This document shows positions 21,464-33,526 of a stretch of 64,000 nucleotides of DNA, one piece after another. Numbering within the stretch: position 1 is the first letter of the stretch; each line of letters starts with the position of its first letter. Source of the DNA: Myroides profundi (GTDB lineage: Bacteria > Bacteroidota > Bacteroidia > Flavobacteriales > Flavobacteriaceae). A program made the position numbers and the translations under genes. The notes beneath the pieces are model-generated. The model was not told the origin of the DNA. It did not search any database and saw only the letters and a list, made by a program, of their open reading frames with translations. The stretch lies in the NCBI RefSeq assembly GCF_000833025.1, contig NZ_CP010817.1:3658001-3722000 (forward strand), in the 5' to 3' direction.

Positions 21464-21473
21464 TATCTACTTG

Positions 21474-21547
21474 CGTCCGCGGGAGGGTTCGAACCCCCAA
21501 CCCTCAGAGCCGAAATCTGATATTCTATCCAGTTGAACTACACGGAC
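21474..21547 (-). tRNA. tRNA-Arg (anticodon UCG)
   Basis: A 74-nt cloverleaf on the minus strand. The acceptor stem is GTCCGTG/CGCGGAC, the D arm contains AGTTCAACTGGATAGAAT, and the anticodon stem TCAGA/TCTGA encloses the loop TTTCGGC with anticodon TCG, which reads CGA. The T arm is GGGGG TTCGAAC CCTCC. The discriminator base is G. The 3' CCA is not fully encoded (the gene continues CAA), so CCA would be added after transcription. I looked for a copy of the tRNA 3' end beyond the accessory cluster and saw none. Confidence 0.95.
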
Positions 21548-22349: not shown

Positions 22350-23201
22350 ATGCTAACTTCTATCGAACTAAAATCTACCTATGGTATAGAGGTAGGTAGA
22401 GCTACTTACCTTACAGAAGACACTGTGCCGTTCGAACAACACAAAGATGTCTACCAACTACTCTGGTTACAAAAAGGAAAAGTAACTGTCACCCTCACTA
22501 CGAACAAAAAAGAAATTAAAGAAGGAGACTGTCTATTCTTAGGAAAGAACGAGCTATTTCGCTTAACGGCTTCTGAGAGTTACACCTTATACTATGTTCA
22601 GTTTACAGATAATTTTTACTGTAGAACAGAACTTGACAGTCACTTTCTAAGCAAATGCTTCTTCTTTGATAATACGAATGCTATTAATTCGATCACGCTT
22701 AAGCCAGAGCATGAAGTTTTTGTACAGTGTTATTTCACCACCTTACTAAAACTGAAGTCAAAAGAATATAGTGAAGTACATTATATGTTAGCTCATAATA
22801 TTATAGAGCGAGTTCTTCTCTACATTATGGCAGGACATATAGAGAAGTTTGTCAGCTTTAATAAAGAGAAACTTACTCCACTACAAATACAACATACTGT
22901 CAAATTTAATGAATTGATTAAACACAACATTAGAAAAGAAAGAAACGTTCATTTCTATGCAGAACAGATGAATATCTCTATTGCTAAGTTAACTGAAGTG
23001 TGTAAAGAAGTATTTGGGACTACACCTAAAAAAATTATAGCAAGTGCAGTGGTCAACGAAATAAAGCTATTATTAAAGCATACTCCAATGACCATTAAAG
23101 AAGTTGCTTTTGAGCTAAACTTTGAAGATGTAAGTAACTTCATCCGTTTCTTTATAAAAGCTACAGGATTAAGCCCTAAAGAATATAGAGAACTATTATA
23201 A
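22350..23201 (+). CDS. AraC-family transcriptional regulator next to pilus-like cluster
   Basis: A 283-residue regulator. Residues 1-140 form a cupin-like sensor domain (VYQLLWLQKGKVTVTL, IKEGDCLFLGKNELFRL). The C-terminal 100 residues hold two helix-turn-helix units (NVHFYAEQMNISIAKLTEVC; MTIKEVAFELNFEDVSNFIR) and the family end FFIKATGLSPKEYREL. It is monocistronic with a strong terminator. It sits directly upstream of the pilin-like gene at 23575, whose promoter region carries a long palindrome and direct repeats, so control of that cluster is a reasonable inference. Confidence 0.93.
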   Translation: MLTSIELKSTYGIEVGRATYLTEDTVPFEQHKDVYQLLWLQKGKVTVTLTTNKKEIKEGDCLFLGKNELFRLTASESYTLYYVQFTDNFYCRTELDSHFLSKCFFFDNTNAINSITLKPEHEVFVQCYFTTLLKLKSKEYSEVHYMLAHNIIERVLLYIMAGHIEKFVSFNKEKLTPLQIQHTVKFNELIKHNIRKERNVHFYAEQMNISIAKLTEVCKEVFGTTPKKIIASAVVNEIKLLLKHTPMTIKEVAFELNFEDVSNFIRFFIKATGLSPKEYRELL

Positions 23202-23217
23202 TATCGTTTATCCTATC

Positions 23218-23252
23218 TCCCCTTGTAATCATCATTTACAAGGGGATTTTTT
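23218..23252 (+). terminator. Intrinsic terminator after AraC gene
   Basis: TCCCCTTGTAA pairs with TTACAAGGGGA, followed by T6; strong 11-bp stem. Confidence 0.9.
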
Positions 23253-23445: not shown

Positions 23446-23466
23446 TTTATCACATTATGTGATAAA
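23446..23466. promoter_or_regulatory. Perfect palindrome, candidate operator of pilin-like gene
   Basis: Arms TTTATCACA and TGTGATAAA around TTA: 9 + 3 + 9 bp with no mismatch, about 30 bp before the -33 region. Flanked by 12-nt and 10-nt direct repeats. The TCACA/TGTGA halves are in the opposite order to a CRP site. Confidence 0.6.
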
Positions 23467-23495
23467 TGACAATTCTTTAAAGATAAATGACACTA

Positions 23496-23523
23496 TTTGA
23501 GAATCAAAGCTGCTATACTTTTG
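23496..23523 (+). promoter_or_regulatory. Promoter of the first pilin-like gene
   Basis: -33 element TTTG at 23496-23499 and -7 element TACTTTTG (TAnnTTTG) at 23516-23523, 16 nt apart. Transcription would start near 23530, 45 nt before the ATG. Confidence 0.6.
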
Positions 23524-23574: not shown

Positions 23575-24129
23575 ATGAAAACAACATTTAAATTAGTATT
23601 AGTAGCAGTTTTAGCTTTCGCAAGTACTTCAACTTTCGCACAAGACAAAAAAAGTACAGGAAGCACAAACTTAAACGTTAACTTATCAGACGTTTATGAA
23701 TTGACTGTTAAGAATCCTAATGTAAATATCCAAATGAACACTGTAGAACAGTTTCAAAAAGGTAGTACTTCAGGTGAATTACAAAACCACTTAGAAGTAA
23801 CAGCTACTCAAAAATATGAAGTAAAAGTGATCGCTAGCAGTGATTTAACGAATGATGGAGTTAGCATCCCTGTAAACACAGTAGAAGTAAGAGTAAAAGG
23901 TAACAATAACTTAGCAGAAGGTGCTGCACCAGCTAACTTTAATGCTACTCATAACATCACTCCATTAGCTACTACAGAGAGCAGCTCTTTAATCACTACA
24001 TCTGCAGGAAGTGCTAAGATGGGATATGCTATCGAATACGCTATACCAGCAAGCCAAACTTCTGCTTATACAGACAAAAAAGCAGGTACATACAGCACTA
24101 CAGTTACTTATAACTTATATGCTCTATAA
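23575..24129 (+). CDS. Secreted beta-sandwich protein, putative major pilin-like subunit
   Basis: A 184-residue protein. An Sec signal peptide (about residues 1-22, ending TSTFAQ) is followed by an all-beta domain without Cys. The C-terminus KAGTYSTTVTYNLYAL resembles the last strand of spore-coat-U and DUF4402-type secreted subunits (GTYxxTVTY). Two further proteins downstream share this end. I start at ATG 23575, since the in-frame ATG at 23497 would put 26 basic residues before the signal peptide and precedes the promoter. The gene has its own promoter and strong terminator, so it can be expressed at a higher level than the operon behind it, as expected for a major subunit. The pilus role is inference. 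Confidence 0.8.
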   Translation: MKTTFKLVLVAVLAFASTSTFAQDKKSTGSTNLNVNLSDVYELTVKNPNVNIQMNTVEQFQKGSTSGELQNHLEVTATQKYEVKVIASSDLTNDGVSIPVNTVEVRVKGNNNLAEGAAPANFNATHNITPLATTESSSLITTSAGSAKMGYAIEYAIPASQTSAYTDKKAGTYSTTVTYNLYAL

Positions 24130-24152
24130 TAAGATATAGCCTTATACAATAT

Positions 24153-24197
24153 AAATCTACTGTAGTGATATCATTCACTTCAGTAGATTTTTTTTTT
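24153..24197 (+). terminator. Intrinsic terminator after first pilin-like gene
   Basis: AAATCTACTG/CAGTAGATTT stem (10 bp) with T10 tail. It isolates the first subunit gene from the five-gene operon downstream. Confidence 0.9.
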
Positions 24198-24328
24198 GGA
24201 CTAAAAAGCGAATTAATACCCTCTGCTTCTATTCCAATTATTTGTTACCCAAAACAGCTAAAAACATTGACGATTATTGACTTTGTACGCTTTTTTTTAC
24301 TAAATTTAGAATATCTAAAACAGATGAT

Positions 24329-24844
24329 ATGAGACAATTATTCTTTACCTTCTTTTTGATCTTAGTCAGTGTGGTAATGCATGCTCAGAATACTGCGCAA
24401 ACTAACCTTATCGTGACTCTAAAACCAATACAGTCTATAAAGATTAATGATCAACAATCTAATATCAATCTGTCTTTCGAAACAGTAGAAGATTATACTA
24501 AAGGAAAGATCAGCGACCAAGCAGATCATATAGAAGTAATGAGCAGTGGTACTTATGAAGTAAGGGTGGCTGCTAGCTCTCCGCTGACTAGTAATAATGA
24601 ACAAATAAGTTTAGAAAACATTAGTCTAAACCCTACATTAGGGACTATCGGTGATTTTAGAGAAAATATAACCATGATACCTGTATCACTATCTATGAAA
24701 GAACACAATATGATTAGTTCTAATCTAGGTGATGTGAAAAGAACATTCAATGTATCTTATAAAATGGATGCATCCGAAGAATTATTAAATAAACCAGTAG
24801 GTACTTATAGTACTGTAATTACTTACACTATCTTATCATTGTAA
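24329..24844 (+). CDS. Secreted pilin-like subunit 2
   Basis: A 171-residue protein with signal peptide (MRQLFFTFFLILVSVVMHAQ) and one beta-rich domain. It shares the plan of the 184-residue protein upstream: TNLIVTLKPIQSIKI near the mature start, a middle ..VEDYTKGKISDQADHIEVMS like VEQFQKGSTSGELQNHLEVT, and the end KPVGTYSTVITYTILSL. These matches show the two are homologous. It is the first gene of a compact five-gene run (subunit, subunit, chaperone-like, adhesin-like, barrel). Probably a minor subunit or adaptor. Confidence 0.75.
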   Translation: MRQLFFTFFLILVSVVMHAQNTAQTNLIVTLKPIQSIKINDQQSNINLSFETVEDYTKGKISDQADHIEVMSSGTYEVRVAASSPLTSNNEQISLENISLNPTLGTIGDFRENITMIPVSLSMKEHNMISSNLGDVKRTFNVSYKMDASEELLNKPVGTYSTVITYTILSL

Positions 24845-24852
24845 TAGTACAC

Positions 24853-25386
24853 GTGTTTAAAAAATCATTATTCATCACGCTCCTCTTCTGTGTCACCAGC
24901 ATCGCTATGGCTCAGATAGGATCTACAAGGGCTAGGATAGTATTAAACTTTAAGGAACAACAATCCTTGGTTATCTCACATTCTACTGTAGATTTAAACT
25001 TAAATAGAGGAGAAGTATATACTCAAGGGGCAGAAACAGGTATTCTGAAAAATCATGTGATCATAAAGTGTTCTACTCCATACGAATTGTCTGTACGCAC
25101 CATAAATCCATATTTTCAATATGAGTCAACATTGTCATCACTGCCTGTGTCTATCATTCATATCAAGCCAAGTGTAGCAACATCTACCCTATTAAGCTTC
25201 CCGTTGAGATTAAGTACAATCAACTTATCTGATAAGCCTCAGATAATCTTACAATCTGAGAACAGAAGTAACAGTCAACAAATAGATGTCAATTACACGA
25301 TTCCGAAACAAAACATTGTAAGTATATTAAATAAAAAAGCAGGAACATATAAAACAGAGATTATATACACGCTACTGCCTCACTAA
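24853..25386 (+). CDS. Secreted pilin-like subunit 3
   Basis: A 177-residue protein starting at GTG (24853), 8 nt after the previous stop; this is the only start that keeps the signal peptide (MFKKSLFITLLFCVTSIAMA). The mature part is all-beta. It shares with the two other subunits the central motif GEVYTQGAETGILKNHVIIK and the end KKAGTYKTEIIYTLLPH. It is more divergent than the first two. Probably a minor subunit of the same surface structure. The following gene, a chaperone-like protein, starts 20 nt later. Confidence 0.75.
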   Translation: MFKKSLFITLLFCVTSIAMAQIGSTRARIVLNFKEQQSLVISHSTVDLNLNRGEVYTQGAETGILKNHVIIKCSTPYELSVRTINPYFQYESTLSSLPVSIIHIKPSVATSTLLSFPLRLSTINLSDKPQIILQSENRSNSQQIDVNYTIPKQNIVSILNKKAGTYKTEIIYTLLPH

Positions 25387-25406
25387 AATTAAAGCACCAC
25401 ATCATA

Positions 25407-26198
25407 ATGAAAAAACTAATACTACTATTCCTTTTACTAAGCTCTCTTCCAATATTCGCACAAGCAGGACTATCTATCTCTCCTGGTAAGATGTACTTTA
25501 GAAATGCTGCTGGAACTATAGCTACTCAAAAAGTTCGTATTGCCAATCCAAATGACAAAGCTGTCGAAGTGGGAGTCTCTATCGGAGATTGGAATTATGA
25601 TGAGAAAGGTAGTAATAACGTAGTAGAAGCAAATACATTAGAAACTTCGGCTTCTCAATGGATTCAAGTATTACCTAATTCTTATTTTGTAATTGAACCA
25701 AATGAAGTAAAAGAAGTAGAGATTATACTTAATGTTCCTCAAGACCTACCTACTAATATACCTGTACATACAGCGATGGTGTTCTTCACTCAGTTAAACC
25801 CTGGGAATGCAGTGGATGAAAATGGTGCTGCTATCAAAGTGACAGTGCGTATGGGACTAAAAGTATATCATGCAAATCAAAATAATACAGAGTCTGTAGA
25901 AATAGTAGATATCAAACCTGCCAAGACTGCTGAGGGGGAAAAAGCGATAGAAGTTAACTTTCAGAACGATGGGAAACTATGGAGTGACGGAAAGATGACA
26001 GCGAGTATCTTCAATCAACAAACAGGAGAGAAAACAACATTAAATACACTAGATTTTTACAGTCTACCTACTGACGTAAGAAAACATATTATACCACTAC
26101 CGAATCAACTAAAATCAGGCACTTATACCTTTATTATCCAACTAACTTATGGCAAGGATAATATTGTAAAAGTGGCAGAACTAGACTTCACGCTATGA
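25407..26198 (+). CDS. PapD-like periplasmic chaperone
   Basis: A 263-residue protein with signal peptide (residues 1-18, ending LPIFAQ) and two Ig-like domains. The N-terminal one begins AGLSISPGKMYFRNAAGTIA and carries KVRIANPNDKAVEVGVSIGD, then VIEPNEVKEVEIIL and a hydrophobic alternating strand. The hinge region has VRMGLKVYH, where classical chaperones have an R-x-lplyv pattern. The size is close to FimC/PapD (about 205-250). Such chaperones lend a strand to incomplete pilin domains in the periplasm. It stands between pilin-like genes and an outer-membrane barrel gene, exactly as in chaperone-usher operons, and overlaps the next gene by 4 nt. Confidence 0.75.
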   Translation: MKKLILLFLLLSSLPIFAQAGLSISPGKMYFRNAAGTIATQKVRIANPNDKAVEVGVSIGDWNYDEKGSNNVVEANTLETSASQWIQVLPNSYFVIEPNEVKEVEIILNVPQDLPTNIPVHTAMVFFTQLNPGNAVDENGAAIKVTVRMGLKVYHANQNNTESVEIVDIKPAKTAEGEKAIEVNFQNDGKLWSDGKMTASIFNQQTGEKTTLNTLDFYSLPTDVRKHIIPLPNQLKSGTYTFIIQLTYGKDNIVKVAELDFTL

Positions 26199-27229
26199 AC
26201 CTAAAGTTAAATATATACATCAGCCTATTTTTATTACTACTGAGCAATACGGTATTAGCACAGTATGACTTAAATATTTATGGAGGCGGACAGTCTGTAT
26301 TAAATTCATATAATGATCTAAAAGTAGGGAAGACAGAAGATAAACAGATCTCTGTACAGTTTCGCAGATTCTACGGAACGCCTTCTCCTACCAAATGGAA
26401 GTTAACAGTAAGACTACTCGATGATTACTATGCAGGTAACTATATGGTACCTGCTGAGATGTCAACATTAAGTACGAATAAACAAGGGGGTAATTTTAAT
26501 CAACTTGCCTTCAGTGTCGTGGGAAGAGATTTACCTCTAAGCAAATATCAAGAAAATACGATCATAGAGAGCACAACACCTCTACCAGAAGGTAACTACT
26601 ATACCTTAAACTTTGACTTGACTATTCGAGGAGGGGTACATTTACTGACTATCCCTAACAATACTTATATGAGTACATACGAGTTCTCTTTATATGATAC
26701 TTCGTCAGGTAGAGATCAATTACTTCTGCGTAAAACATCTGGTACTGGTAATGCAAGATTTCAGATTAACTATGTAGGAAATCATGGTGATCAAATAGCA
26801 GAGTTGCGAAATGGTGCTAGTGAATTTGTCTTTAACTTTGATTCACCAGATGATATTGTAAAAGGAAAGACAATCACGATTAACAATGCTCTTTACATCA
26901 AGAGCTATCAAGGTCATCAAGTACTCGTAAAGACGGCAGACAATATGATGTATAATAATACGATGACTAATAGCTTACCTGTTTCTATACTAAAACTAAA
27001 GGCGACTTTAAATAACATTGAAGGAGGTAGTCCTTCAGATGCTAGAGATGTAAAGGTATTCGGTCCATTATCACTATCTGCTAATGAACAGCCTCTTGCC
27101 TCCTTCTCTAGATGGAGTCAATCGATGTCTTATAACCTTGAACTGAGTATTCCTCCTAATCAGAAGGAATTACAACAAGCCAGTGGTAGATACGAAACTT
27201 ATTTATACTTTGTAATTGTCCCTAATTAA
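26195..27229 (+). CDS. Two-domain adhesin-like secreted protein
   Basis: A 344-residue protein with signal peptide (about residues 1-22, NTVLAQ). Its size and layout fit a two-domain tip adhesin: an N-terminal beta domain of about 170 residues with aromatic-rich strands (VQFRRFYGTPSPTKWKLTV, EGNYYTLNFDLTIRG) and a C-terminal pilin-like domain ending SGRYETYLYFVIVPN, which mirrors the GTY end of the three subunits. Start overlaps the chaperone stop by 4 nt, and its stop overlaps the barrel gene start by 1 nt, so translation is coupled. No lectin family is recognised; the adhesin role is inferred from layout. Confidence 0.65.
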   Translation: MNLKLNIYISLFLLLLSNTVLAQYDLNIYGGGQSVLNSYNDLKVGKTEDKQISVQFRRFYGTPSPTKWKLTVRLLDDYYAGNYMVPAEMSTLSTNKQGGNFNQLAFSVVGRDLPLSKYQENTIIESTTPLPEGNYYTLNFDLTIRGGVHLLTIPNNTYMSTYEFSLYDTSSGRDQLLLRKTSGTGNARFQINYVGNHGDQIAELRNGASEFVFNFDSPDDIVKGKTITINNALYIKSYQGHQVLVKTADNMMYNNTMTNSLPVSILKLKATLNNIEGGSPSDARDVKVFGPLSLSANEQPLASFSRWSQSMSYNLELSIPPNQKELQQASGRYETYLYFVIVPN

Positions 27230-29958
27230 TGCTTAAACAGCTTTATACATTACTGTTTATCTGTTTGTTTTTTCTTTCTAACGCACAACAAACACCTATA
27301 CACTTAAAGTTTACGGATATAGAAACTCCTGCGGATGAATATGGTAATATCTCATCAGCCATAGAAGTATCTAATGTCAGTAATACACAATGGTCTGGGA
27401 ATATAAAGATAGAAGGTAATTCTACTAACTTACGTATATCTAGTAACGCTAATAAATTCATTCAGATCCATCCTGGACAGAGAGTCTATGTCCCTATCAT
27501 AGCGAATATAGACCAGTCTGCTAGTAGTGAGATAGATTTGTTCATAAGAGCTAGTCTAAGCAACAATTTAAATCAAATCATACAAGTAGCTGAACAAAAG
27601 ATTTTAATACAAAGGAACAGACGTATCTTACTTCAAAATCAGAACAATCATTTACAGTTCCAAAAAATAGGAGATACTATTCACTTAAAAGCTTTAATTC
27701 AAAATAGAGGTAATACATCAGAAAAGCTTCATTATATCATAACCTTTCCCAATCAGGTCAATAAACAACGTACTCATACTTCTCATATCACATTAGCTCC
27801 ACAGCGAGATACACTTATTACTATCAACCAAATCATCTCGAAAGAAGCTGTTAAACTAGAGGATTTTGATATCACTGCTACACTACTATATGAAAATGGA
27901 GATTTTATATCACGTACTAACTATAGTGTCAGTTCTTTAAAATCTAAACGACGATATAAAATAGATAATTCGAATACAGATCCTTATTACCAGAGAAACA
28001 CGATAGAACTCAACCGTGTTAGTGGTAATAATGTAATGAACTCATTTCAGCTGATAGGTTCTACAGAAGTTCACTTAAGCGAAAAGACTAAAGTAGGACT
28101 AACTGGAGATCTAATCTATTGGGACAAGGAGAACAAATATAATCTACGTCACTTCCTAGCTGACATCAAGACCGAAAAAGTACAGGTCCTAGCTGGTAAT
28201 ATTTACCAAACAGGGGAATTCTCATTACAAGGACGAGGAATACAAACTAATATTAATATAAAAGACTCCATCTCTATACAAGGTGGATACTTAGATAAAA
28301 CCTATTTAATCACAGATGCAAGTGATCGCTCTATTGGCTACAATACATGGATTGGGTTTACTTCACTTAAACATAAATGGAGACAATCACAGCTGTACTA
28401 TGACCTAAACCATCGTTATGATGAGAAAAAGACACTGTGGTATAATACATTTAGCCTATGGAATACGCCTACATTTAATTTAGAAATGATGGAAGGTGTC
28501 TCTAATATAGATAGCAAGGAGAATAATCAATTAGGAGCCTTTATAGGGATAAATGCTTATGCAAGGTGGGATAAGTATCAATTCCAAACTAATAGCTTCT
28601 ACAGTAGCCCTTATTATGCAGGTATTAGACAAGGTGCTTCTCAGGTGTCTAGTAGTATCAGAAGAAACTTTGATAAGCATAGTTTTGGCTTGACACAAAG
28701 TTTTGTCCACTATGCTCCTAAATACAGTTATACAGACTATAATAACTCAAAACAACAATCTAATACCATAGGACTAAACTATTCCTATAGAATGCAGACC
28801 AATATGCTTCTGCTTAGTCCACGTTATGTAAATGAACAACGATTCAATTACAAAACTCAATTAATGGATGACTTAGATGCATTGAGATTAAGTACTTCAT
28901 TCAATCACAATAGTTTCACTAATGGCTTAGGATATAATGTATCACTTGACTTAGGGAACTATCTCTCTAAAGTAAGTCTAACTGATAAACTACACTACCG
29001 CTTAAATGCCGGAGTCAACTATAAAAGTGTTGATTTTGGCGTAAGTTATCAGTACAATTATAGCAATCTAAGTGAAGTCATCAACTCGAGTTACTTAGGT
29101 TTTATAGATACAAGTACCTATACTAATCTAATGATTATGGGAAACTATAGACAACGTTTTTTCAATAATCATGTAGGAGTGGTACTTAACGCTTATTATA
29201 CGAAGACATCGACAACAGATGACTTATGGCAATTAAACAGTCGCTTAGAATATAAGTTGACAAAGGACTTTGATATCTATGTTAGTAGTTATAACAACTA
29301 TGGAGGCTTTTCTAAGAACAATAAAACAAATTATGTACAAATAGGGGTAGTCAAACAATTAATGCCTTATAAGCCTTATGAGAAAGCGTATACTCTAAAG
29401 ATAATCGTTTACTACCAAGATGAAGCAAATAATAATTATCCAGCATCTAATAGAATAGTCTATATCAACAATAAATCATTTATCACGAATAAAGAAGGAG
29501 CAATAGAATATAAAAAGTTACCTCTTGATAGCTATACCATACAAGTCAAAAATGATCAGGAATGGTTTGCTAATACAGATAAGATTGTATTAAAATCAGA
29601 TACCACACATAGCATTCACTTAAGACAGACAACTACGTTATCTGGTAGTATTAATTATGAATTCTCTGAGAACTCACATCTTATCAATAGGAATCTCTCT
29701 GGACAACGTATCGTAGCTCAAAGTCATACTGGAGAAAGCTACACTACCTATACGTCAGATAGTGGTAACTACATTCTATACATCCCTAAGGGCGACTATA
29801 TACTAACACTATACCCAGAGAATAGTGCTTATGTAGATGTTATAAAAAATGCTATCAAAGTAAGCACGCATATTAATCAACCGCAGATAAATAATTTCAC
29901 TATTAAAATCAAGGATAAAGAAGTACAAACTAAAAAGTTTAACTCTATCCAGTTCTAG
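27229..29958 (+). CDS. Large outer-membrane barrel, putative usher-like protein
   Basis: A 909-residue protein with signal peptide (about residues 1-19, FFLSNAQ). Three parts can be seen. Residues 20-240 form beta-sandwich domains (SSAIEVSNVSNTQWSGNIKI; LKALIQNRGNTSEKLHYII). Residues 250-745 are rich in alternating aromatic strands ending in Y, as in a transmembrane beta-barrel (for example INAYARWDKYQFQTNSFYSS). Residues 750-895 hold two carboxypeptidase-regulatory-like domains (YINNKSFITNKEGAIEYKKL; SDSGNYILYIPKGDYILTL). This resembles the usher plan of periplasmic, barrel and C-terminal domains. A middle plug domain is not evident. Last gene of the operon, convergent with ftsZ. Sequence similarity to FimD is not obvious. 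Confidence 0.7.
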   Translation: MLKQLYTLLFICLFFLSNAQQTPIHLKFTDIETPADEYGNISSAIEVSNVSNTQWSGNIKIEGNSTNLRISSNANKFIQIHPGQRVYVPIIANIDQSASSEIDLFIRASLSNNLNQIIQVAEQKILIQRNRRILLQNQNNHLQFQKIGDTIHLKALIQNRGNTSEKLHYIITFPNQVNKQRTHTSHITLAPQRDTLITINQIISKEAVKLEDFDITATLLYENGDFISRTNYSVSSLKSKRRYKIDNSNTDPYYQRNTIELNRVSGNNVMNSFQLIGSTEVHLSEKTKVGLTGDLIYWDKENKYNLRHFLADIKTEKVQVLAGNIYQTGEFSLQGRGIQTNINIKDSISIQGGYLDKTYLITDASDRSIGYNTWIGFTSLKHKWRQSQLYYDLNHRYDEKKTLWYNTFSLWNTPTFNLEMMEGVSNIDSKENNQLGAFIGINAYARWDKYQFQTNSFYSSPYYAGIRQGASQVSSSIRRNFDKHSFGLTQSFVHYAPKYSYTDYNNSKQQSNTIGLNYSYRMQTNMLLLSPRYVNEQRFNYKTQLMDDLDALRLSTSFNHNSFTNGLGYNVSLDLGNYLSKVSLTDKLHYRLNAGVNYKSVDFGVSYQYNYSNLSEVINSSYLGFIDTSTYTNLMIMGNYRQRFFNNHVGVVLNAYYTKTSTTDDLWQLNSRLEYKLTKDFDIYVSSYNNYGGFSKNNKTNYVQIGVVKQLMPYKPYEKAYTLKIIVYYQDEANNNYPASNRIVYINNKSFITNKEGAIEYKKLPLDSYTIQVKNDQEWFANTDKIVLKSDTTHSIHLRQTTTLSGSINYEFSENSHLINRNLSGQRIVAQSHTGESYTTYTSDSGNYILYIPKGDYILTLYPENSAYVDVIKNAIKVSTHINQPQINNFTIKIKDKEVQTKKFNSIQF

Positions 29959-29978: not shown

Positions 29979-30008
29979 TAAAAGGACTATCTTTCGATAG
30001 TCCTTTTA
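29979..30008. terminator. Bidirectional terminator between pilus-like operon and ftsZ
   Basis: AAAGGACTATC/GATAGTCCTTT stem, loop TTTC, flanked by A and T runs. It can serve both convergent units. Confidence 0.85.
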
Positions 30009-30024
30009 AATAATATACTTATAA

Positions 30025-32085
30025 TTAATCTACATTATCGTGTAAATATGAGTTGTTAGATCTTAACTGCCCATCGTTATTACTATCTAATCCGAAAGTA
30101 ATACGTGACTTATTAGTTGTCTCGTCTGACTCGTGTAAGTCTACTCCACTTCTTTTATAAGCTGGCTCACGCTCTAACTCTGTTAACTGACTGTTCGTAT
30201 TATTAAACTTGTAGTTAAACTCTTTCATCTTTTTTCTGCGTTCAGCAGCACGACTCTTAAGTGTAAACTCCTCGATACTCATTTCTATAGGGTTTACTTC
30301 ATCTAGTTCCTCTTCTACTACTGCATTAGATGCTTCTACTACAGCTGGAGTTGGTTCCTCTGATTTAATAGAAAATCTAAATTCATCTTCTATTGCATCT
30401 TGATGTTTATTAATCGGTTTTGCTGATGCTAACTCACTTTCTTTATCTGTATAATCTTCTAAAGAGAACATGATAATTTCTTCTTTAGGAGCAGCCATAT
30501 TTTGAACTGATTTAGCTTCATTACCATAAGCAATATTGCTTTTTGCTTCTACCACATCATCCTCTAAATGATACACAACAGGAGCATTTGCTTGTGGTTG
30601 TTGAGACACTTGTGTTTCTGGTCTTTTTGCTACATTTACAATAACAAACTCAGGATCAACAACATTTATATCTCTTATATCTTTTGTTTTTGCTAAATTT
30701 TGCTCTTCTGAAATACTAGTATTTTTTTTTACTTCCTCAGAAGGCGTTACGATTTCAAAAAAAACATCTAATCCATTAGCGTCACTTGCTTTCTCAGTAG
30801 CTTCGGCTGTCACTTGTTTTACTTGAACGTCTTCCTCATTCATTGCCTCTACAGAGATACCTTCATCAAGATCTTCATCTTCAAAATCACCTAACTGATG
30901 TATAGTAATTTTTTCTGTTTCTTCTACTGCTTCTTCTGGAGAAGAAATAATAGTAGTAACCTTAGATAATGGCTCATCTGGAGAAGAATAACCGAAAGAC
31001 TCTACAGATGAAGCTTGCATTAAATTATGCTCTAACTTCTGATCACCTTCTAATACGTGAATAATCTTATTAGGCTCACCTGTTGTAACAATACTTTTTT
31101 GTTGTTCGATATTGAAACCTGTAGCAATAATTGTTACAGAGATAGCGTCTCCTAAAGACTCATCTTCACCAACCCCCATAATGATGTTAGCATTATGTCC
31201 AGCTTCTGTCTGGATGTGGTCGTTGATTTCACCTATCTCATCAATTGTAATCTCATTTGCACCAGACACAATTAATAACAATACATTCTTAGCACCGCTA
31301 ATCTTATTATCATTTAATAGAGGAGAATCTAATGCATCTACGATAGCATCTTTAGCTCTAGTTTCACCAGAAGCTGTAGCAGATCCCATTATAGCAGTAC
31401 CACTATCAGATAATACAGTCTTAGCATCTTTTAAGTCAATATTCTGAGTATAGTGATGCGTAATAACTTCTGCGATACCACGAGCTGCAGTAGATAAGAC
31501 TTCATCGGCTTTGGAGAAACCAGCTTTGAAACCTAAATTACCATATACCTCTCGTAACTTATTATTATTGATAACAACTAAAGAGTCAACTTGTTTACGT
31601 AGACGTTCAACCCCTTTTAAAGCTTGGTCTTGTCTCACCTTACCTTCGAATTGGAAAGGAATAGTAACAATACCTACTGTAAGGATATCACGTTCTTTAG
31701 ATAACTGAGCGATAACCGGAGCAGCACCTGTACCAGTACCACCACCCATACCAGCAGTGATAAATACCATCTTAGTGTTGGTATCTAGCATCTTCTCTAT
31801 CTCTTCTATACTTTCTAAAGCAGACTGTTGGCCCACTTCTGGATTAGCTCCTGCTCCTAACCCTTCAGTAAGGTTAACCCCTAACTGAATTTTAGTTGGA
31901 ACTGGACTATTTTCTAATGCTTGAGAGTCAGTATTACACACTATAAAATCTACACCTTTAATTCCTTGTTGGAACATGTGATTAATAGCATTACTTCCAC
32001 CGCCTCCTACACCTATTACTTTGATAACGTTTGATTGGTTTTTCGGTAAATCAAACTTTATTCCTCCAAAATCTGTATTCTCCAT
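30025..32085 (-). CDS. ftsZ: Cell division protein FtsZ with long C-terminal extension
   Basis: A 686-residue tubulin homologue that forms the division ring. The GTPase part is intact (about residues 1-320): [15 protein letters not shown], the tubulin signature [14 protein letters not shown] and NxDxxD-like contacts (DEVL). Behind it comes about 360 residues of acidic, Glu/Val-rich linker, far longer than in E. coli FtsZ (383 total), ending in a conserved-looking peptide [11 protein letters not shown]. Long linkers are usual in flavobacteria. I start at ATG 32085 (MENTDFGG); the upstream in-frame ATG 32115 would overlap ftsA by 17 nt. Last gene of the dcw cluster. Confidence 0.97.
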
Positions 32086-32098
32086 ATACGTAGCCTTT

Positions 32099-33526
32099 TT
32101 ATTCTTGCTTTTCAATAAAATCTTTTATTTTTCTAAAAAAAGTACCAAAGAAATTTGATTCAAATTTTTCTGCCGTTGGCGATCTAAATTCAGTCTCTTT
32201 TGGTTCTTCAGAAACTTTAGGTCTTTCTTGACTTACTGTTTCTATTGGATCTTGTGACACAACTGGTTGTTGTACCACAGGCTCTGCGCGATTAACAACA
32301 GGCGCCTCCACTTCTGGAACTTTGTTCTCAACAGCAGTCTCTGCCATCGAAACAGCTCCTTTTATATGATGTCTTTCACTTTCCATTACTAACCCTACCG
32401 CAGTAGCATATAATGGACTAGAAATCTCTAAACTAGAGTCTCCAGCTAAGTGCTCATTAGGATATCCTATACGAGTATCTATACCAGTGATATATTCTAC
32501 TAATTGCTTAATGTGTTTTAATTCAGAACCTCCTCCTGTTAAAACAATCCCTGCAATCAATTTCTTCTGTGGGCTTTCATATCCATAGCTCTTAATCTCA
32601 GAGAATACTAATTGAATAATCTCTTCTACTCGAGCATGAATAATCTTAGACAAGTTTTTTAAAGATATTTCCTTTGGCTCTTTTCCTCTTAATCCTGGAA
32701 TAGAAACAATCTCATTATCTTTATTTTCACCTGGCCAAGCAGACCCAAACTTTACTTTTAGAATCTCAGCTTGACGTTCTATAATAGAACATCCTTCTTT
32801 AATATCTTCTGTAATAACATTTCCTCCGAAAGGTACTACAGCAGTATGACGAATAATCCCGTCTTTAAAGATAGCTAAGTCTGTTGTACCACCTCCGATA
32901 TCGATAAGTGCTACTCCTGCTTCTTTTTCTTCTTGACTTAGAACTGCTTCAGCTGATGCTAAAGGCTCTAACGTAATACCTGAAAGCTCTAAACCTGCAT
33001 CCTTAATACATCTCCCCGCATTCTTTATTAATGCAGCTTGACCTACTACTACATGGAATACAGCTTCCAAACGACTTCCATACATTCCAATAGGCTCCTT
33101 AATACCAGGCTCCCCATCTATTTTGAACTCTTGTGGAAGTACATGTATAATTTCTTCACCTGGAAGCATACTCAACTTCTGAACTTGAGTAATTAATTGC
33201 TCAATGTCCTTATCTCCTATTACTTCATCAGGATTATCTCTACTTATATAATCACTATGTTGAATACTACGTATATGCTGTCCAGCGATACCTACTACCA
33301 CATTCTTAATCTTATACCCTGCTGCTGACTCAGCATCAGTAACAGCGTTTTGAATAGATTGAATGGTCTGCGTGATATTGTTAACAACACCTCGTTTAAC
33401 ACCTAGACTTTTAGCTTTACCTAATCCTAAAATTTCTAGTTTACCGTATTCGTTTTTCTTTCCAATCATTGCGACAATCTTAGTTGTCCCAATGTCTAAA
33501 CCTACAGCTATATTTTCTTTTTCCAT
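32099..33526 (-). CDS. ftsA: Cell division protein FtsA
   Basis: A 475-residue actin-like ATPase that tethers FtsZ to the membrane. Visible are phosphate 1 (VGLDIGTTKIVAMIG, residues 8-22), the 1C subdomain, phosphate 2 (ALIDIGGGTTDLAIF) and the adenosine motif (GIVLTGGGSEL). After the core, about 80 Pro/Val/Glu-rich residues lead to a C-terminal amphipathic helix (FFRKIKDFIEKQE), the membrane-targeting peptide. Its stop lies 13 nt before the ftsZ start; ftsQ ends 9 nt upstream. Confidence 0.97.
   Translation of the reverse strand: MEKENIAVGLDIGTTKIVAMIGKKNEYGKLEILGLGKAKSLGVKRGVVNNITQTIQSIQNAVTDAESAAGYKIKNVVVGIAGQHIRSIQHSDYISRDNPDEVIGDKDIEQLITQVQKLSMLPGEEIIHVLPQEFKIDGEPGIKEPIGMYGSRLEAVFHVVVGQAALIKNAGRCIKDAGLELSGITLEPLASAEAVLSQEEKEAGVALIDIGGGTTDLAIFKDGIIRHTAVVPFGGNVITEDIKEGCSIIERQAEILKVKFGSAWPGENKDNEIVSIPGLRGKEPKEISLKNLSKIIHARVEEIIQLVFSEIKSYGYESPQKKLIAGIVLTGGGSELKHIKQLVEYITGIDTRIGYPNEHLAGDSSLEISSPLYATAVGLVMESERHHIKGAVSMAETAVENKVPEVEAPVVNRAEPVVQQPVVSQDPIETVSQERPKVSEEPKETEFRSPTAEKFESNFFGTFFRKIKDFIEKQE

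Follow-up and report, generated by a model that had tools for sequence, protein, structure and literature searches.

A highly divergent chaperone-usher operon of Myroides profundi with an apparently plugless usher

Introduction

What kind of surface system is encoded by six closely packed genes of the flavobacterium Myroides profundi whose products include a chaperone-like protein, three small secreted proteins and a large outer-membrane barrel? The genes occupy 23575-29958 on the plus strand of the stretch of DNA analysed here (the window; 64,000 nucleotides of contig NZ_CP010817.1, positions 3658001-3722000), and an earlier interpretation made from these letters (the sequence-only reading) had proposed a separate chaperone-usher-like pathway with a tip adhesin. 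The chaperone, a chain of usher profiles and a pilin domain in the tip protein lead us to favour such a pathway, with a tip protein of two domains. We are confident that this is a chaperone-usher system as such, and consider it likely that the six genes constitute a complete, highly divergent chaperone-usher pilus or thin-fibre operon in which the usher is apparently plugless.

Ushers have been described as five-domain proteins, comprising an N-terminal domain (NTD), a 24-stranded barrel, an internal plug and two C-terminal domains (CTDs) (PMC8410936). The plug interrupts the pore domain (PMC4356140) and counts among the core domains of ushers, with roles in keeping the resting pore shut and in subunit recruitment (PMC8410936, PMC3960871). 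A broad survey of secretion systems omitted the chaperone-usher pathway (PMC4793230), and a text search of PMC5717340 returned no mention of Bacteroid, phyla or plug. Among the matches listed in our literature search, which covered titles and abstract openings and for which subscription papers were mostly outside reach, there was no Flavobacteriaceae chaperone-usher system and no plugless usher.

Results

The chaperone aligns with PapD-family chaperones over both domains

The gene at 25407-26198 encodes a 263-aa protein that profile alignment to E. coli K-12 chaperones identifies as a PapD-like two-domain periplasmic chaperone. A profile of 42 family chaperones matched one of 11 E. coli K-12 chaperones over 210 columns spanning both domains (hhalign probability 96.1%, E 3.3e-9; percentages for the profile comparisons below are of the same kind), and Pfam PapD_N was detected in 6/32 chaperones, with a best value of 4.7e-4. 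The chaperone profile also reached 50.3% against the pilin profile, via the signal-peptide region. In the alignment to FimC, Lys28 (codon 25488-25490) corresponds to mature Arg8 (precursor R44), Lys152 (codon 25860-25862) to mature Lys112 (precursor K148), P90 to a proline of the first domain (D1) and W62 to a Trp. The R8 column was basic (R or K) in 39/42 chaperones, the K112 column held K in 34, H in 5, Q in 2 and Y in 1, and proline was kept at the P90 column in 34/42, being missing in eight deeper ones. A D1 proline is given in PMC4654587 as the sole invariant residue of the chaperone superfamily, and we infer that P90 is this residue; the same source describes archaic chaperones as being without analogues of the classical Arg/Lys pair. 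These alignments make the protein homologous to PapD-family chaperones along its two domains and place the basic pair at the expected positions; the sequence-only reading had called it a PapD-like two-domain chaperone. A likeness to WxL-interacting proteins (PF11797, WxLIP_HBD, 0.0011) was set aside as generic immunoglobulin (Ig) similarity, because family members weakly match several Ig-like families.

A two-step profile chain connects the barrel to ushers

The last gene of the operon (27229-29958) encodes a 909-aa outer-membrane protein whose assignment as an usher draws on a profile chain to E. coli ushers and on its conserved position at related loci. We compared the window's family (BAR; 53 sequences) with 28 plug-bearing Bacteroidota intermediates (CU1) and with the sets B2 (six sequences) and B3 (three). 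Forty loci found with a broad chaperone profile were opened, and 32 of them entered usher sets (23 in CU1, 6 in B2 and 3 in B3); at the other eight (L104, L105, L107, L119, L120, L128, L132 and L134) a chaperone open reading frame (ORF) or a clear usher was not found. L131 was placed in CU1 by position, usher profiles giving no match there, and L077 and L087 were excluded from 17 further loci.

CU1 ushers matched eight E. coli K-12 ushers at 99.6% (E 7.9e-24, 716 columns), and BAR in turn matched CU1 at 99.0% (E 6.9e-18); this second alignment, of 376 columns, comprises the CTDs and the C-terminal part of the barrel. BAR also matched B2 at 100% (E 5.7e-39), and B2 compared with E. coli ushers gave 1.3%. 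One B2 usher matched CooC_C, an usher C-terminal family, at 1.3e-5, which is below the curated cut-off, and a search seeded with this usher returned four proteins, one of them near-identical and labelled CooC_C. The barrel of the window's usher (aa 246-720, 27964-29388), with boundaries that we set from the alignment, is aligned to recognisable ushers in its C-terminal part. It is followed by C-terminal beta-sandwich domains (aa 721-909, 29389-29955), which matched the CU1 CTDs at 99.1% (E 4.7e-19); the CU1 CTDs matched those of E. coli at 91.0%, and the family CTDs compared directly with E. coli CTDs gave 21.6%. This two-step chain supports placing the 909-aa protein in the usher family, and an outer-membrane barrel with C-terminal beta domains, as read from the letters of the window, is upheld.

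Seven complete ORFs of the same genome with CarboxypepD_reg or Plug matches, drawn from 45 loci with a length filter of 600-1150 aa (lengths found, 625-680 aa), served as controls and reached 4.0% against BAR. One came from a Plug search and six from a CarboxypepD_reg search; their barrel nature is assumed, and two are of equal length and perhaps copies.

The plug region is short in the family and in its relatives

CU1 residues map approximately one to one onto FimD through the plug region. We counted the residues between two anchors that flank this region, FRG/GRG and AG/GG, in alignments made within each usher group. The distance was 13-22 residues in 59/59 BAR, deep, B3 and B2 ushers and 97-119 residues in 36/36 plug-bearing CU1 and E. 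coli ushers, and the first anchor glycine was kept in all 59 short-gap ushers. In the window's usher, the corresponding junction, at the plug site of other ushers, is at aa 337-353 (GRG...GGY; 28237-28287); it is marked by the anchor distance and, for the main family only, by the peak of an excision scan.

In that scan, an 83-residue window was cut from the CU1 barrel profile at 34 coarse positions and in 44 fine combinations. BAR matched best when the cut began at 288-294, which is the plug, with global scores of 37.0-39.0 compared to 28.3 for the uncut profile. The local alignment of the plug-excised CU1 profile to BAR crosses the joint, and the control ORFs showed no such effect. Plug profiles work across families (CU1 plug against E. 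coli plug, 89.8%; in whole barrels, 64.8% and 57.9%), and on BAR and B2/B3 barrels they gave 0.1-0.5%. The barrel segment is 451-475 residues long (475 in the window's usher as we cropped it; ten B2, B3 and G269 ushers), and the FimD barrel without its plug is, by the boundaries that we assume, approximately 443 residues. Relocation of the plug to either end of the usher was considered and not adopted. On the N-terminal module, plug profiles gave 0.1-0.2%; against the C-terminal region, the CU1 plug reached 14.2% (E 0.0019), and against the whole family 5.5%, again near the C-terminus. On balance, the evidence favours loss, and the usher has likely lost its plug.

The usher N-terminus resembles a pair of chaperone-like Ig domains

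Residues 20-245 of the usher (27286-27963) appear to form two tandem Ig-like domains of PapD-chaperone-like type. The two halves of this module matched each other at 95.7% (E 8.4e-9). The module matched the family chaperone profile at 80.0% (E 1.4e-5), E. coli chaperones at 67.2% and a wider chaperone set at 92.3% (E 5.4e-7), the last along 203 columns that run colinearly through both domains; for the B2 N-terminus, the values were 66.3% against family chaperones and 24.3% against E. coli ones. The reversed sequence gave 1.8%, and none of twelve other sets of beta-sandwich or usher domains exceeded 1.3%. Weak Pfam matches to NEW3, FixG_C and HYDIN-like Ig families were present at the N-terminus of the two B2 ushers scanned. 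The family N-terminus reached 0.1-0.8% against E. coli and CU1 NTDs in what is a low-power test, given that CU1 and E. coli NTD crops matched each other at 0.6%. We consider it likely that the module is a tandem PapD/NEW3-like Ig pair, and that the usher as a whole is plug-free with an Ig-type N-terminus. Duplication of a chaperone gene onto the usher is not claimed, as a chaperone profile also finds matches within large ORFs that are probably unrelated.

Three pilin-like proteins and a two-domain tip-like protein

The first three genes encode pilin-like subunits of 184 aa (23575-24129), 171 aa (24329-24844) and 177 aa (24853-25386; GTG start, directly 5' of the chaperone gene). The mechanical start of the first ORF is TTG at 23497, and ATG at 23575 is the likely start. 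The three proteins align as one family, as the sequence-only reading had it, although their similarity is low, at 28% and 20% identity relative to subunit 1. The gene at 26195-27229 encodes a two-domain tip-like protein of 344 aa, with an N-terminal domain at approximately aa 23-195 and a C-terminal pilin domain. By inspection, the N-termini of all six operon proteins look like signal peptides that end in AQ and are without a lipobox.

The C-termini are GTYSTTVTYNLYAL in subunit 1, GTYSTVITYTILSL in subunit 2, GTYKTEIIYTLLPH in subunit 3 and GRYETYLYFVIVPN in the tip-like protein, with a glycine exactly 14 residues from the C-terminus in each of the four. Across the family, this glycine was present in 36/37 tip-like proteins and 70/91 pilin candidates (small ORFs); seven of the 91 were dropped as unrelated ORFs before alignment, and L037 was excluded from the tip alignments. 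The pilins are predicted to combine this C-terminal motif with an N-terminal alternating-hydrophobic pattern, which in subunit 1 is the extension TNLNVNLSDVYELTV. Tip columns 199-352 matched the pilin profile at 99.3% (E 1.7e-20) from column 48 to column 204, a segment that leaves out its N-terminal extension. Judged by this match, the C-terminal domain of the tip-like protein is a pilin domain without an N-terminal extension.

Family pilins matched CU1 pilins at 88.4% (E 2.8e-6) over 89 columns that start near the signal peptide. No Pfam family explains the tips (best match 5.1e-4, in one of 35 members), and SCPU was matched neither by the window's subunits nor among the best 25 of 29 families listed for 44 subunits. 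Some related loci, such as L027 and L036, gave one pilin candidate only.

Gene order, distribution and annotation

The chaperone profile search yielded 36 named loci, in Myroides, Paenimyroides, Flavobacterium, Mesonia, Arenibacter, Cellulophaga, Sediminibacterium, Daejeonella, Arcticibacter, Pedobacter, Taibaiella and an uncultured Chitinophagaceae bacterium. A chaperone gene, a gene for a tip-like protein of approximately 340-510 aa and a gene for a homologous barrel follow one another on one strand in 35/36 of them, the exception (L037) being a 3.9-kb contig without a barrel. The sequence-only reading had suggested looking for the same order in other Flavobacteriaceae; it is found in Flavobacterium, among others, and spans at least three families. 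Because 35/36 loci keep this order, the operon is more than a chance arrangement. The window's chaperone shares 98% identity with its counterpart in M. odoratimimus CCUG 39352 (L002).

A tree of 66 chaperones placed all 32 that accompany apparently plugless ushers on one side of one branch (support 95/90), which was recovered in 94% of 200 bootstrap trees; the tree carried long-branch warnings, one of them within this group. A single origin of these chaperones is thus shown by computation. We find it rather more probable than its negation that the systems form a distinct chaperone-usher class with a single origin in Bacteroidota, in which the usher plug was lost and a tandem chaperone-like N-terminal module was gained.

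In protein databases, searches with the chaperone returned 88 proteins and searches with the barrel 17, the named rows of the latter being five Myroides and one Solitalea koreensis. The barrel profile matched 40/395 genomes of the phylum, 13 with E <=2.5e-9 and the other 27 over short, mostly C-terminal segments. A broad chaperone profile (A4) matched 131/395 Bacteroidota genomes and 55/170 genera; related chaperones are common in Bacteroidota, although some of these matches are fragments inside large ORFs. The Pfam Usher family (PF00577) had no match above its cut-off, and three weak ones, in 296 sampled Bacteroidota genomes. Together, 0/296 for PF00577 and 131/395 for the broad chaperone profile point to a blind spot in annotation. 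Where database rows carry a name, the ushers are listed as hypothetical or uncharacterised proteins, as an outer membrane beta-barrel or as a TonB-dependent receptor, and the chaperone homologues are sometimes labelled fimbrial or P pilus chaperone.

A Pfam/NCBIfam scan recognised none of the six operon proteins as fimbrial and identified only the AraC regulator upstream. Apart from the WxLIP_HBD row of the chaperone, its weak matches were CarboxypepD_reg on the barrel (0.0025), none on the tip and chance-level rows on the pilins. Searches of the PDB with the single chaperone and barrel sequences gave no fimbrial relative.

Several further systems came to light in these searches. The plug-bearing usher clade (L072-L076, L106 and L135-L141) is widespread and is missed or barely detected by Pfam Usher; its N-terminal region has weak similarity to Cu_amine_oxidN1 (0.029 in L072, 2.3e-5 in L140). 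A paralogous second system occurs in L083, L084, L086 and L088, with three to five similar pilins in the first three of these, where a 477-478-aa tip-like gene lies 3' of the usher gene. The barrel has at least two matches in each of the genomes G210, G308, G012, G095 and G002. Partial matches to the chaperone profile lie inside ORFs of approximately 1150-2340 aa in G167, G258, G022 and G112 and are probably unrelated Ig-like proteins.

Comparison with known systems

Like type 1 and P pili (FimACDFGH and PapACDEFGHK), the Myroides system has a two-domain PapD-like chaperone with an R8/K112-type basic pair, a two-domain tip with a C-terminal pilin domain, an usher-family barrel with C-terminal beta-sandwich domains and a subunit motif with glycine at -14, which we take to be the type 1/P motif. 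Unlike them, it has an usher with a tandem Ig-like N-terminus and without a detectable plug, shows no direct profile match of usher or pilins, carries the tip gene before the usher gene and belongs to a Bacteroidota host. The CU1 systems share homologous chaperones, the C-terminal part of the barrel and the CTDs with the Myroides system, but have 98-119 residues between the plug anchors, another N-terminal region and subunits that mostly end in a GxYxGxxxxxxY-type motif. Like the predicted Myroides fibre, the type V pili of Porphyromonas (FimA/Mfa1) are Bacteroidota surface fibres of beta-sandwich subunits. They are lipoprotein-based, whereas the Myroides system has apparent signal peptides without a lipobox and includes a chaperone and an usher.

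Weighing the alternatives

Several results weigh against a plugless chaperone-usher system. Compared directly with E. coli ushers, BAR gave 5% (E 0.008), so that usher homology rests on the chain, and family pilins gave no match to E. coli pilins (16%). With CU1 and B2, the control ORFs scored 47.7% (E 1.9e-4) and 39.9%, respectively, and probabilities near 50% therefore mean little. An amphipathic scan of the family barrel gave 17-24 peaks depending on the threshold, compared to 18-22 for FimD including its plug; the scan is poorly calibrated and does not fix the number of strands. The second anchor glycine is kept in 40/40 main-family ushers but in 9/19 deeper ushers, and the anchor is therefore less certain in the latter. 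When the excision scan was run on B2/B3 (10 sequences), the best cut was at 218-266 (42.7), with 34.3 at the plug compared to 34.9 uncut, and against E. coli ushers the best score was 25.4 elsewhere, compared to 15.1 at the plug. The N-terminal module reached 6.7% against the chaperones of the plug-bearing clade alone, and its likeness to chaperones could be general Ig similarity. Searched against the PDB, the chaperone profile had no match up to E 1, the barrel profile matched only NOMO2 and FixG-like domains, and the pilin and tip profiles gave chance-level rows.

Some of these results would also be expected if the operon were an ordinary archaic chaperone-usher member whose plug is present but too diverged or displaced to be recognised, an explanation that we regard as unlikely. 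Archaic (Csu-type, sigma) pili have several small subunits, a chaperone, an usher and a two-domain tip in one operon, a gene content that the Myroides locus shares, and their subunits are SCPU-type. A plug could escape detection just as direct usher similarity does, and the B2/B3 replicate of the excision scan did not favour the plug site; archaic systems are, moreover, reported from a wide range of phyla (PMC9452303). Against this explanation stand the 13-22 residues between the plug-flanking anchors in 59/59 ushers, the failure of plug profiles to find anything in the barrels, and a barrel segment that compares in length to the FimD barrel without its plug, as we delimit the latter. The chaperones also have the basic pair that archaic ones reportedly lack (PMC4654587), and SCPU is not among the best 25 families listed for the subunits; on these two features, we rejected membership of the archaic class while keeping it as a rival.

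Slightly less probable still is a system derived from the chaperone-usher pathway for the export or display of subunits singly or as short oligomers, with no polymeric pilus. Polymerisation of the subunits is only predicted, and loci such as L027 and L036 have one pilin candidate; set against this, three pilins with N-terminal extensions and a tip without one make up the parts list of a polymer, and paralogous loci have three to five similar pilins. We also checked whether the barrel is a TonB-dependent receptor, a possibility raised by the sequence-only reading, or another nutrient transporter that adjoins Ig-like proteins by chance, and consider this very improbable. One homologue (P0015) is named TonB-dependent receptor in the database, and CarboxypepD_reg domains, which are common in such receptors, were matched in 37/40 barrel homologues at E up to 1. 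The CarboxypepD_reg match of the barrel lies near its C-terminus, however, Plug (PF07715) is absent from the Pfam matches of the barrel and from the best 25 of 48 families listed for 40 homologues, and the control ORFs scored only 4% against the family; receptor identity is disfavoured by the last two results.

A proposed assembly route

If the operon encodes a chaperone-usher fibre with a plugless usher, the 344-aa protein would be the first to enter the fibre and form its tip, since a pilin domain that lacks an N-terminal extension cannot donate one. Donor-strand exchange at the 909-aa usher would then add the three small subunits, which would leave through its barrel. The N-terminal Ig pair of the usher most likely serves as the docking site for complexes of chaperone and subunit in place of the usual parts, and it may also lie over the pore. 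Gating and docking would then work differently from those of structurally known ushers, perhaps with the chaperone-like module itself closing off the pore, and a natural clade of plugless ushers would indicate which usher parts are indispensable and allow gating to be tested by comparison rather than with deletion mutants. The new part is the remodelled usher; chaperone-usher pili in Bacteroidota may not be new as such, because archaic systems have been recorded in a wide range of phyla (PMC9452303).

Operon layout and flanking elements

All six ORFs are co-directional on the plus strand at the positions first read from the window, and the overlaps noted there are real: 4 nt between the chaperone and tip genes (26195-26198) and 1 nt between the tip and usher genes (27229). 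Upstream, on the same strand, a gene at 22350-23201 encodes an AraC-family protein (Pfam HTH_18, 7.8e-21) that is a probable regulator of the pilus operon; of 32 related loci with at least 3.6 kb of upstream sequence, 21 have a homologue of this gene in that region, in the same orientation. A terminator-like hairpin (23218-23246, plus strand) with an 11-bp stem followed by a T run separates this gene from the operon.

A putative promoter region at 23464-23523 (plus strand) was read by eye, with a Bacteroidota promoter consensus that we assume, and its function is inferred. It contains direct repeats AAATGACA that lie 21 bp apart, at 23464-23471 and 23485-23492. A -7-like element TACTTTTG, with a spacer of 16, occupies 23516-23523. 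In an alignment of the window with five Myroides loci, the TGAC of both repeats and the -7-like element are largely conserved. A sigma-70-type promoter scan of the window gave no excess (37 observed, 37.6 expected), and a Bacteroidota promoter pattern with a spacer of 18-22 had two matches in the window (2.27 expected by chance), neither of them at the operon. Just 5' of the putative promoter region, a perfect inverted repeat, TTATCACA-TTA-TGTGATAA, occupies 23447-23465; it is kept in the close relative L002 and absent from the other four aligned Myroides loci.

On the other side of the operon, a terminator-like hairpin (29979-30008, minus strand) lies between the usher gene and a convergent ORF at 30025-32115, which we take to be FtsZ-like. 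The chaperone and the barrel have one match each in the window's genome, a single contig of 4.06 Mb. The same genome has 49 matches to PF07715, the plug of TonB receptors. The sole tRNA found in the window, tRNA-Arg (tcg), lies at 21473-21547, approximately 0.8 kb before the AraC gene.

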